Below are positions 297 through 5,190 of a stretch of 10,517 bases of DNA, piece by piece. The notes below the pieces were generated by a model. It searched no databases and had not been told where the DNA came from. It saw only the letters and a list, made by a program, of their open reading frames with translations. The translations under genes and the position numbers were made by a program. Within the stretch, counting starts at the first letter, position 1, and every line of letters starts with the position of its first letter. This DNA comes from Candidatus Bathyarchaeum sp. Its GTDB lineage: Archaea; Thermoproteota; Bathyarchaeia; Bathyarchaeales; Bathyarchaeaceae. Location: NCBI GenBank assembly GCA_003096235.1, contig PIXT01000105.1, forward strand, positions 1 through 10,517. The letters are read 5' to 3'.

Positions 297-1355
297 TTAA
301 TCCAAGTTTTTTTGATTCACTACTGAGAAATCACCAAAATACACCTTAGAGGTTAACCCACCTTCTGATTCAAAGAACCCATATTTTGCTTCTTCTTCAG
401 GAGGATTCACATTCCAAAACGGTGTCATAGAATACCTTAAAGCCCCATAAGATTCTCCTAAAGAGACAAAACCATTTCCATTAAAATCATAATCTTTACT
501 TGCAATATATGAATAAGTTCTAGTGTATGGATTGTCATACACGTCACTTGTGCCATAAACATAAGCTAATGGCATAGTCACTAAGACATAAGGCGATGAA
601 GTGATTTTCAAAGAATTGATAGACCCCGCTTGTCCACAACAATAAAGTGTTATTGCAGTAGTTTTTGCGTGTATCTGGTCTAATATTTCTCCAAGTTCGT
701 CATAATGAACATAACACGTTGCGTTTGTATCATATCCAGTTCCATCATTAAACCAAACTCCTGTAGTGCTACCGTGTGATTCAAACATCAAATAAAAAAA
801 AGAATTTTTTTCAATAGAACTTGAAAACTCTGTAACAGCCCTTTGGAAATCATCAATTGTTGCCTTCTTATAAGTTAACTTAACAACTTTTTTAGAGTCA
901 AATTTTTGTTCATCGGTTAGGAAATAATAAGCAGAATCTCCTGCAACAGTATTTTCATCAGTATCAATTATTATTGCGTATCGTCCATTGTAAACATCAT
1001 AAGGCAAATCAGCAATAGTTTTTTCAAAGTAATTGTTCATGTTGTCTTTGTCCCAATCAAAATCACTGTGTTTCCCACTATGAATGAATTCTATTTGTTC
1101 TGTTTGTGTAAATTGTTTTAGGAAATTAATTTGATTAACTTCATCTTGAGAAATAACACCATCATCAAGAAAAACATCAAATTCGTATTGTAAAATTTCA
1201 CTAAAAGTTTGAACGTATTCATCAAACAAGATTCTAGACGCATCAGGTTCGACTTCCTCACCTAGTAACCCTAGAAAATCATTAGCAACAAAAAATCCAA
1301 CTACAACAAAAGCAACTATTGCTACAGAAATGATTCCGATTGTTTTTCTTGACAT
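297..1355 (-). CDS. Membrane-anchored clan CD (C13/legumain-like) cysteine peptidase with EF-hand-type loop
   Basis: The 352-residue protein starts with a short basic end and one hydrophobic segment (about 6-25), read as a signal anchor that leaves the rest outside the cell. The catalytic part (about 125-262) has the clan CD layout: a strand with YAIIID (126-131), then a hydrophobic strand ending in the catalytic His of ESHG (His194), then a strand ending in LYCCGQAGS, where Cys240 (or Cys239) would be the nucleophile. This matches the His-Gly and Cys-containing blocks of C13 legumain-type peptidases. Residues 290-301 (DFNGNGFVSLGE) form an EF-hand loop with ligands at positions 1, 3, 5, 9 and 12, so calcium binding is likely. 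A weaker half-site, DDGVISQDE, sits at 64-72. The substrate is unknown. The start ATG follows AGATGG at a 6-nt gap and a large inverted repeat. The fold class is likely; the exact family is less sure. Confidence 0.75.
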   Translation of the reverse strand: MSRKTIGIISVAIVAFVVVGFFVANDFLGLLGEEVEPDASRILFDEYVQTFSEILQYEFDVFLDDGVISQDEVNQINFLKQFTQTEQIEFIHSGKHSDFDWDKDNMNNYFEKTIADLPYDVYNGRYAIIIDTDENTVAGDSAYYFLTDEQKFDSKKVVKLTYKKATIDDFQRAVTEFSSSIEKNSFFYLMFESHGSTTGVWFNDGTGYDTNATCYVHYDELGEILDQIHAKTTAITLYCCGQAGSINSLKITSSPYVLVTMPLAYVYGTSDVYDNPYTRTYSYIASKDYDFNGNGFVSLGESYGALRYSMTPFWNVNPPEEEAKYGFFESEGGLTSKVYFGDFSVVNQKNLD

Positions 1356-1652: not shown

Positions 1653-3005
1653 ATGAAGAAACTTCTTCCAATCGCATTTCTATTAGTTATAATGGTTTGC
1701 GGATTGGTTTTTGTCAACACCATGCATCTAGGCATAGCCCAAACAGAACTGGCTGGTGCAGAATTAAATTCAAAACTTGAAAACTCGGTAGTTGTACCTA
1801 ATTTGCTTTGGAATCTTACATTTCCTAAATATATAACGGGCTACTACAAAGGCACCCCAAACTATTATTTGCCTGAGTTTGGGTCACCTACTGTCGTTGA
1901 TGGTGTAGTTTACATAGCATGTAGTGGCGGTCCTAATCAAGGTCTGTACGCTTTGGATGCAAACACTGGGGAAACACTTTGGAATTGCAGCTACGAAAAC
2001 GATGCAGTTTCACGTCCAGCAGTAGATAATGGAGTTGTTTACATAAACTCCAGAAACGACATGTATGCTTTCGATGCCGATACAGGTGCGAAATTGTGGC
2101 AACTCAGCTTTTTTGGCATTACTAGATCGTTCCCTTTGGTCGTTGATGGTTTGCTGTATTTTGGCGAAGCTAGAGGCAACGTATACGCATTGAATGCCTC
2201 CAACGGTGATATAGTTTGGAATCATACGGTGGGGGTTCCGTCACCAAAAGATGGATTGTTTTATGGTACTTTTTCAGATGTTTCGATTGCTGACGGTGTG
2301 GCATATATTGGCTCACAAAATTACAAGCTTTACGCTTTTGATGCTTTGTATGGCGGCAAAATTTGGAGTTACACTACGGGCTATTCGGTTGTTGCTGCAC
2401 CCGCGATTGCTGAGGGAGCAGTTTATTTTGGTTCAGGAGACGGCACCGTTTATGCTTTGAATGCAACTAACGGCAAAAAGCTCTGGAGTTACATTACTCC
2501 TGAAAGCGAAAACAACGGCAACTGGATTGTTAGCACACCTTCTGTTGTTGACGGTGTAGTCTACATAGGTTCCGACAACGACGTATTTTATGCGTTAAAG
2601 GCTTCGAAAGGCACTAAAATCTGGAGTTACACTGCTGGCGGCAACATCCAGTCTTCTTCTACAGTTATTAACGGAGTGGTCTACGTTGCTTCCAGTGACA
2701 AAAACGTTTACGCCCTAAACGCTACTAACGGCGATAAAATCTGGAACTACACCACTGACGGCGGACGTTATACACACCCCACGGTCGCAAATAACGTGCT
2801 TTACATAGGCTCAAGATCAGGCAGCGTTTATGCCATAGGCGAATTAGCCGAGCCACCTCAAACATCACCCACAATACCTGAACAAACAATAATCACATTT
2901 GCCGCCATTCTAATCACAGCCACAACCATTGCCATAGTAGTCTCAAAGAAAAAAAGCAATAGTAAAGATAAAATTGGCACCCACAATTTGGGAAAAAACA
3001 TCTAA
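1653..3005 (+). CDS. Secreted PQQ-type beta-propeller protein with C-terminal membrane anchor
   Basis: The 450-residue protein has an N-terminal signal segment (residues 1-29: lysines, then a hydrophobic core ending in GIAQ). It then carries a run of PQQ-type propeller blades. The blade signature Y-A-[LF]-[DN]-A-x-x-G-x-x-[LI]-W recurs from about residues 99, 138, 178, 227, 267, 313 and 353, with a last partial YAIG at 393, fitting an eight-bladed ring like BamB or quinoprotein dehydrogenase propellers. I see no dehydrogenase active-site features, so a binding or scaffold role at the cell surface is more likely than catalysis. After a Pro/Thr linker (400-411), one TM segment (about 412-430) and a lysine-rich tail anchor it. 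Seven Asn-x-Ser/Thr sequons (N54, N111, N181, N190, N270, N356, N365) suit archaeal N-glycosylation. It is divergent from the peptidase gene. Ligand unknown. Confidence 0.85.
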   Translation: MKKLLPIAFLLVIMVCGLVFVNTMHLGIAQTELAGAELNSKLENSVVVPNLLWNLTFPKYITGYYKGTPNYYLPEFGSPTVVDGVVYIACSGGPNQGLYALDANTGETLWNCSYENDAVSRPAVDNGVVYINSRNDMYAFDADTGAKLWQLSFFGITRSFPLVVDGLLYFGEARGNVYALNASNGDIVWNHTVGVPSPKDGLFYGTFSDVSIADGVAYIGSQNYKLYAFDALYGGKIWSYTTGYSVVAAPAIAEGAVYFGSGDGTVYALNATNGKKLWSYITPESENNGNWIVSTPSVVDGVVYIGSDNDVFYALKASKGTKIWSYTAGGNIQSSSTVINGVVYVASSDKNVYALNATNGDKIWNYTTDGGRYTHPTVANNVLYIGSRSGSVYAIGELAEPPQTSPTIPEQTIITFAAILITATTIAIVVSKKKSNSKDKIGTHNLGKNI

Positions 3006-4450: not shown

Positions 4451-4485
4451 GGCATACATCATCGCATATTACTGTGGGGCGAGGT

Positions 4486-5190
4486 ATGAGTCAGCAAAAG
4501 TGGGAAGACCTGATTCAAAGACTGATTAAGGGTGGTGTTCTTCGGTCGCCTAGTGTAGTTAGGGCGTTGCGGAGGGTTCCTCGTGAACTGTTTCTTCCCG
4601 AAAACGTGAAAGCTAATGCAGCAGTGGATTGTCCGCTTTCGATTGGTTCAGGGCAAACGGCTTCGGCGCCTCTCAGTTGACACGTGCGGTCTACTGGGCG
4701 AAACATGGTATCCATAATGGATGAAGCCCTTGAACTAGAAGTCGGACACAAAGTCCTAGAGGTAGGAGGGGGCTGTGGATGGCACGCCGCCACCATAGCA
4801 GAAATAGTGGCGCCTTCGGATGCACCCAAAGAACAGCGGGGTCACGTTTACACCGTAGAAAGAATACCAGAGTTAGCTGCGTTTGCACAAGACAACATCA
4901 AAAAAGCAGGATACACAGACAAAATTACAGTAATTAACCAAGATGGAACCTTGGGGTACCCCGAACAGGCACCGTATGACCGCATCTTAGTTGCGGCTGC
5001 GGGTCCACAAGTCCCAGAACCATTGATTGATCAACTAAAAGATGGGGGCGTTCTTCTTGTTCCTGTGGGCGGCGCACAGTTCTACCAAAGATTGGTTAGA
5101 GTCAGGAAAATTGGCGAGGAAATTGTTGAGGAAAACTTGGGAGCTGTCGCATTTGTGCCCTTAATTGGCAAGCATGGGTTTGAACCGTAG
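4486..5190 (+). CDS. pcm: Protein-L-isoaspartate O-methyltransferase, interrupted by a 30-nt BHB intron
   Basis: The enzyme uses S-adenosylmethionine to methylate L-isoaspartyl residues in damaged proteins, starting their repair in the cytosol. The coding sequence joins exon 1 (4486-4672) to exon 2 (4703-5190), giving 224 residues, the usual archaeal length. Exon 1 carries the N-terminal helices, VPRELFLPE and the substrate loop IGSGQTASAP. Exon 2 carries the rest of SAPHM (Ser60, His63), the SAM motif VLEVGGGCGWHA (80-91), YTVERIPEL, the YDRILVAAAG strand and the C-terminal VAFVPLIG block. Without splicing, UGA at 4678-4680 ends translation after 64 residues, before the SAM site. ATG 4486 fits the family; GTG 4474 would add four residues. 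GAGGT directly touches the ATG, so it is not a normal Shine-Dalgarno. The stop codon lies 6 bp from that of convergent fen1. Confidence 0.85.
4673..4702 (+). other. Bulge-helix-bulge pre-mRNA intron within pcm
   Basis: A strict central BHB is visible: CGCC (4667-4670) pairs with GGCG (4697-4700), and the 3-nt bulges are TCT (4671-4673) and AAA (4701-4703). The inner helix is CAGT.T.GAC (4674-4681) with GTC.T.ACTG (4689-4696), seven Watson-Crick pairs and one T.T mismatch, closed by a 7-nt loop. Cutting each bulge after its second base removes exactly 30 nt. It deletes the in-frame UGA (4678-4680) and joins C to AC, creating His in the conserved Pro-His-Met of the family. The direct outer helix is weak (G4666-C4704 only), although GGCTTC (4659-4664) can pair with GAAGCC (4723-4728). 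Archaeal EndA cleaves such motifs and RtcB joins the exons. Splicing itself is inferred. Confidence 0.83.

Follow-up and report, generated by a model that had tools for sequence, protein, structure and literature searches.

A putative bulge-helix-bulge intron at a conserved position of pcm in Bathyarchaeia and Asgard archaea

We analysed a stretch of 10,517 nucleotides (positions 1 to 10,517 of contig PIXT01000105.1 of a Candidatus Bathyarchaeum genome), hereafter the window. Its pcm gene is interrupted by 30 nucleotides, positions 4673-4702, which are very probably an mRNA intron of the archaeal bulge-helix-bulge (BHB) kind. The insert and its stop codon, its exact absence elsewhere, its shared position, the covarying helices, the low dN/dS of the joined exons and the presence of EndA genes were all observed directly. 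As we infer it, splicing would begin with one RNA comprising the pcm exons and the insert. This RNA would fold into a relaxed BHB motif, the tRNA-splicing endonuclease EndA would cut it after 4672 and after 4702, and RtcB would ligate the exon ends to restore Ser-Ala-Pro-His-Met. An unspliced pcm RNA would give a truncated product only. Judged from genome sequences, pcm appears to be a new and deeply conserved host gene for a known kind of intron.

Results and discussion

Anatomy of the pcm insert

In the window, pcm is present as two open reading frames (ORFs) that share a frame, 4474-4680 and 4684-5190, which match neighbouring portions of the PCMT and pimt models in profile searches. Thirty nucleotides with an in-frame TGA separate the two parts of the gene, and this TGA (4678-4680) stops the unspliced reading frame. 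The first-pass annotation of this DNA had described a gene broken by an in-frame UGA within the motif SAPHM, and both the sequence and the ORF list confirm it. Joining 4672 to 4703 yields Ser-Ala-Pro-His-Met with a His codon split C|AC, so that the proposed removal of 4673-4702 does restore Pro-His-Met. Aligned with the joined Pcm protein, solved homologues read SAPHMV (1jg1) and SAIHMV (2yxe) across the junction. The features are as follows.

4486..4672, plus strand: pcm exon 1, from ATG 4486 (GTG 4474 in the ORF list) to the C of the split His codon; PCMT Pfam match, 8.5e-11
4667..4670, plus strand: CGCC, 5' strand of the central helix (4 bp), within the Ala-Pro codons of exon 1
4671..4673, plus strand: 5' bulge TCT, with a predicted cut after 4672, as the geometry of the motif and the regained His codon suggest
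4673..4702, plus strand: putative 30-nt intron, relaxed bulge-helix-bulge
4674..4681, plus strand: 5' strand of the inner (intron) helix, CAGT-T-GAC, with T4678 opposite T4692, unpaired
4678..4680, plus strand: in-frame TGA
4682..4688, plus strand: 7-nt loop
4689..4696, plus strand: 3' strand of the inner helix, GTC-T-ACTG
4697..4700, plus strand: GGCG, 3' strand of the central helix, within the putative intron
4701..4703, plus strand: 3' bulge AAA, with a predicted cut after 4702
4703..5190, plus strand: pcm exon 2, starting with the AC of the split His codon, followed by Met; PCMT Pfam match, 5e-43 for 4684-5190

The bulges TCT and AAA, the inner helix and its 7-nt loop thus lie where the annotation had placed them. 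It had taken CGCC and GGCG for flanks of the motif; both tetranucleotides are there, but they form its 4-bp central helix, and GGCG is intronic. The claim of BHB geometry likewise stands in part: the motif is present and conserved, but in a relaxed form, with one to three contiguous pairs in the outer helix. In the window, the contiguous part of this outer (exon) helix is the pair G4666-C4704 alone, which makes the motif a relaxed BHB.

The window also codes for FEN-1, a CDC48-type ATPase and EF-1 beta, as identified by profile searches, a gene content that, together with the nearest pcm relatives, points to Bathyarchaeia. Upstream of pcm, positions 1653-3005 (plus strand) code for a 450-residue PQQ-type beta-propeller protein with a C-terminal hydrophobic stretch. 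A 352-residue protein encoded at 297-1355 (minus strand) has SHG and CCGQAGS stretches and no Pfam or NCBIfam match; we presume from these stretches a likeness to caspase-like or legumain-like peptidases.

Distribution of the insert

A scan of genome contigs with exon 2 yielded 38 loci, the nearest pcm relatives being Candidatus Bathyarchaeota. Twelve of them (L001-L011 and L013) are interrupted at the same base, by 30 or 31 nt, and the remaining archaeal loci of this first reading (L012, L014-L026) have none. The insert is 31 nt long in five of the twelve and shifts the frame, which rules out its translation in those five loci. A 126-nt gap read from a bacterial homologue (L035) is meaningless and was left unused.

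Within the class Bathyarchaeia (256 genomes), a first covariance model, built from 12 rows, matched 114 places in 110 genomes. These places are in pcm in 107 cases, 106 of which are readable at the junction, all with the insert at C|AC; the other one, L103, lies at a contig end and lacks exon 1. L104 was left out of the tree as too short. The seven other matches (L145, L146, L149, L151-L154) are not pcm: inspected by eye, four fall within open reading frames for other proteins and none resembles a split gene. The motif search envisaged in the first-pass annotation picks out pcm in 105 of the 110 genomes, with a chance match only in the other five. When the 256 genomes were searched with the joined protein, 208 gave a pcm match. 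The junction was readable in 169 of these, of which 106 have the insert, including G037, which the covariance model had missed, and 63 lack it. In these 63 the codon is uninterrupted, and it codes for His in 61. Intronless copies thus lack exactly these nucleotides, as had been anticipated, including L155, whose protein is 78% identical to that of the window.

A second covariance model was applied more widely. It matched 42 of 398 genomes of the Thermoproteota phylum (that of G002), six of them outside the class, to which about 323 of the searched genomes do not belong. Among 227 genomes of the Asgard phylum (that of G005), which contains the named Borrarchaeum and Hodarchaeum genomes, it matched 12. 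All 18 matches outside the class are pcm with an insert at the same base. With no known positive at hand and with stricter filters, which lose weak matches, the model found nothing in samples of the Methanolobus phylum (0/196) and the Methanomassiliicoccaceae phylum (0/194) or in seven named outgroup genomes (0/7).

Altogether, same-site inserts of 21-48 nt occur in 125 genomes, namely that of the window and 124 others (106/256 of the class, six other Thermoproteota and 12/227 of the Asgard phylum). They represent 119 distinct sequences, 102 in what we call the class set (class genomes, the window and G005) and 17 others. An intron in this pcm gene, as first proposed, is supported by these data, and its range extends beyond one species to Bathyarchaeia, other Thermoproteota and Asgard archaea.

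This distribution bears on the possibility that pcm is a decayed gene or an assembly error, which a single in-frame stop in a metagenome record could well suggest. The insert is found at the same base in 124 other genomes, however, and several insert sites are on contigs >1 Mb. The joined gene codes for 220-239 residues in 155 of 171 rows, with and without insert, and dN/dS over the joined exons is 0.04-0.13 in ten pairs, with dS >1 in the four pairs involving the window. Conservation refutes decay or misassembly as a general explanation, and we give it practically no credit. The annotation had named a second intact pcm as a case against its reading; 98 of the 106 insert-bearing class genomes hold a single pcm match (E 1e-20) and the other eight hold two, both with the insert in G119. 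In G005, a second, uninterrupted pcm is present.

Conservation of the RNA motif

On its own, the 66-nt region of the window does not fold better than shuffled sequence (z 0.42; 126 of 200 shuffles fold equally well or better), and its single-sequence fold pairs CGCC with other bases. In a 54-nt context, the BHB motif lies within the minimum-energy fold. We then used RNAalifold on a MAFFT alignment of 12 distinct rows, the window and 11 loci (L003 being identical to L002). Both helices and the 5' bulge were predicted with no structure supplied. In this alignment, 95.5% of the cells are paired and 13 cells have changes on both sides, compared with 5.5 after shuffling. Neither value was reached in 500 shuffles; 21 of the 500 had as many pairs with changes on both sides. 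With 100 of the 102 class-set rows, fitted to the covariance model, 98.3% of cells are paired, and both-side changes affect 244 cells versus 81.6 in shuffles that ignore kinship (0/500), at 10 of 13 pairs, a number of pairs matched by 17 of 500 shuffles.

The central helix has all four pairs in 118 of the 119 distinct inserts and three of four in L074, and it can be imposed on the fold for 1 kcal/mol or less in 114 of the 119. Where the Ala codon is GCA, the intron strand reads GGTG in place of GGCG in eight out of eight inserts (three among the 102 class-set and five among the 17 other inserts), which indicates that the helix formed between exon and intron covaries. The outer helix has one contiguous pair in 70 inserts, two in 41 and three in eight, and cleavage would thus need an EndA that accepts relaxed motifs.

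Class-set bulges are mostly AC|A or TC|T on the 5' side and AA|A or AG|A on the 3' side. In the window, the predicted cut falls between bulge bases 2 and 3, and His is obtained solely by cutting after the first codon base, as in 32 of the 119 inserts; in the other 87, the cut position is not fixed by the His codon alone. Codon usage beside the site differs with the insert: Ala is GCG in 99 of 102 cases with it versus 20 of 62 Ala codons without it, and Pro is CCA or CCT in 102 of 102 versus 24 of 45 Pro codons. This bias is not significant on independent tree pairs, which are too few (n=4).

Translational bypassing would account for the same gene with no RNA removed, the ribosomes hopping over the insert with its hairpin as the hop signal. 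The hairpin is indeed there, and in 77 of the 119 inserts the codon following Pro is His in the unspliced sequence. In the window, though, the codon after Pro is Leu and that before Met is Asn, so that a hop would not yield the conserved His, and in 32 of the 119 inserts His arises solely from joining C to AC. Bypassing has no need for a covarying exon-intron helix with a 3-nt bulge, and cbf5, for which RNA splicing is reported in Crenarchaeota, shares this architecture in insert-bearing genomes. We consider bypassing very improbable, if slightly less so than the other alternatives to a spliced intron.

Insert lengths and stop codons

The 102 class-set inserts comprise 30 with lengths of 3n nucleotides, 48 of 3n+1 and 24 of 3n+2. 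All 30 of the 3n inserts contain an in-frame stop, compared with 9/30 and 7/30 for the other two frames, as do 40 of the 48 inserts of 3n+1 and 9 of the 24 of 3n+2. The stops are TGA, TAG or TAA, and their codon position varies, TGA at the third codon being found in many. Unspliced reading terminates within 31 codons in 100 of the 102. This pattern would fit selection against a readable unspliced message, with counts that are inflated by shared ancestry. If the stop were recoded, the insert of the window, with 30 nt in frame, could be translated as ten extra residues. This is hardly credible given that 72 of the 102 inserts are not multiples of three and that the in-frame stops are of all three kinds. 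A self-splicing intron does not fit either: group I and group II introns have a catalytic RNA core of more than a hundred nucleotides, the inserts have 21-48 nt, and the window contains no Rfam match.

Splicing machinery and cbf5

We looked for the enzymes that would process a BHB intron. EndA is encoded in all 43 relatives' genomes searched, in two sets without overlap (19/19 and 24/24), eight of the 43 being genomes without the insert. As to a possible hetero-oligomeric EndA of relaxed specificity, two EndA matches were found in 12 of the 19 and 19 of the 24 genomes (one of the latter below the cut-off), and one in the others. RtcB is the ligase of archaeal tRNA and rRNA BHB introns. It was detected in 15 of the 19 genomes and not in G004, G006, G009 and G014, the first three of which have the insert. 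G004 has both a pcm and a cbf5 insert and no RtcB match, which may mean another ligase or a missed match; as its record is titled chromosome, a missing contig does not easily explain this absence.

The cbf5 gene scored above the cut-off in 28 of 32 genomes bearing the pcm insert and was read in 24 of the 32, the join being the best-scoring one that gives Leu-Asp-Pro. It is interrupted in the Asp codon of this motif, after base one, in 19 of 24 loci and uninterrupted in five. We take this Asp to be that of the published account of the cbf5 intron. The 19 inserts are 16-76 nt long, and with the best-scoring join each has a complete central helix (4/4 pairs); in L294, L295, L301, L303 and L306, the inner helix begins with at most one pair.

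Interrupted cbf5 loci: L287 and L292-L309, in Bathyarchaeia, other Thermoproteota and Asgard archaea
Their genomes: G654, G002, G004, G006, G123, G010, G001, G188, G292, G264, G306, G299, G285, G652, G653 and G656-G659

The insert-bearing lineages, Asgard archaea included, thus seem to keep an mRNA intron of the kind reported for cbf5 alongside that of pcm. These cbf5 inserts are found beyond the two crenarchaeal orders described in PMC2738675. The 76-nt insert of L302 (G299) is longer than the 16-44 bp given there for crenarchaea.

Evolution of the pcm insert

The class tree requires at least 12 changes in insert state, four of them forced by well-supported branches; the sequence of its outgroup row, L022, is possibly a few residues off at the junction. 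L155, whose protein is more similar to that of the window than any other and which lacks exactly the insert, is placed between insert-bearing rows (support 98 and 97) and is most simply explained by a clean loss.

In the wider tree, ten of the insert-bearing Asgard copies fall together with Asgard pcm genes that have no intron, with a support of 81 when L248 is included and 41 when it is not. L248 belongs to Thermoproteota outside the class and is placed beside the Asgard rows. The intronless Asgard rows of this tree are best matches only, from 199 Asgard-phylum genomes with a pcm match. Its 17 changes are possibly inflated, L258, the same gene as L237 and carrying the insert, having been labelled intronless. 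The grouping of the ten copies speaks weakly against a recent transfer from Bathyarchaeia. Two further loci from Asgard bins, L005 (G005, Wukongarchaeum) and L239 (G746), fall among Bathyarchaeia; both genomes have further pcm matches, and the two contigs are probably mis-binned.

With occurrences in Bathyarchaeia, a few other Thermoproteota and Asgard archaea, the pcm intron looks old and possibly predates the split between Thermoproteota and Asgard archaea. There is, however, about an even chance that the Asgard and Thermoproteota introns were inserted independently at a favoured site or that they moved with the pcm gene. Their distribution is patchy (12 of 227 Asgard-phylum genomes and six of about 323 Thermoproteota genomes outside the class), and the positions of L005 and L239 among Bathyarchaeia and of L248 beside Asgard rows are in line with separate origins or transfer. 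Against these scenarios stand the placement of the remaining ten Asgard copies with intronless Asgard pcm genes rather than with Bathyarchaeia, for which support is weak (81/41), and the agreement between the two phyla in insert position, codon phase, central helix and parts of the intron sequence. More tentatively, the pcm and cbf5 introns may both have been present in the Thermoproteota-Asgard common ancestor, each inside a conserved enzyme motif. Selection might then keep the unspliced RNAs unreadable, so that each enzyme would be made only with a working EndA-RtcB system. If so, they would count with the oldest introns kept at one position in protein genes.

Significance and comparison with known archaeal introns

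The first-pass annotation had put forward pcm as a new intron host gene, and this holds in that the intron is conserved across genomes and no report of pcm as a host was found in the literature searched, where subscription papers and preprints are thinly covered and an earlier mention is possible. With the same limited coverage, no relevant intron report was found for Bathyarchaeota, Asgard or Lokiarchaeota. In that literature, the one archaeal protein gene with demonstrated introns in its coding sequence is cbf5, in two crenarchaeal orders. If spliced, the pcm inserts would make pcm a second widely kept host gene, in more than 100 species-level genomes of two phyla including Asgard archaea. 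It would also lend itself to comparative measurements of intron gain and loss, of codon constraint and of stop codons. Gene callers likely break pcm in such genomes, as in the ORF list of the window, where it forms two pieces, and thus some of the missing or truncated genes of archaeal bins may reflect introns. The occurrence in Asgard archaea bears on mRNA handling by the archaeal kin of eukaryotes.

The closest known system is the intron of the cbf5 pre-mRNA, described in PMC2738675 as 16-44 bp long in Desulfurococcales and Sulfolobales, with an unconventional BHB motif cut between bulge bases 2 and 3. As outlined there, it resembles the pcm insert in being a short intron of a protein gene, with an unconventional BHB and the same cut rule, that breaks a codon of a conserved motif and has lengths in and out of frame. 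Both have been lost in some lineages, and both are too short for a homing gene. They differ in their hosts, protein repair for pcm and pseudouridine synthase for cbf5, in their lineages, and in their evidence, genome sequences for pcm and cDNA for cbf5. According to a 2020 paper, just a single further BHB intron, that of cbf5 mRNA, had been described (PMC7714728).

According to the part of PMC2738675 that deals with them, protein genes of an archaeal virus have putative introns of 12 bp whose splicing is undemonstrated. These are likewise short inserts in archaeal protein genes, but unlike the pcm inserts they have 12 bp, and that part mentions no conservation over lineages. An archaeal mRNA is also known, from the passages describing it, to be cut by EndA at BHB sites; the likeness lies in EndA and the BHB, and the sites are there in the leader, whereas those predicted in pcm lie within the coding sequence, and the passages in question mention no conservation over lineages. 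Finally, archaeal tRNA and rRNA BHB introns, as presented in PMC12397907 and PMC6125680, have the same structure and the enzymes expected for pcm. The host of the putative pcm intron, in contrast, is a coding mRNA, in which one strand of the central helix is formed by codons.
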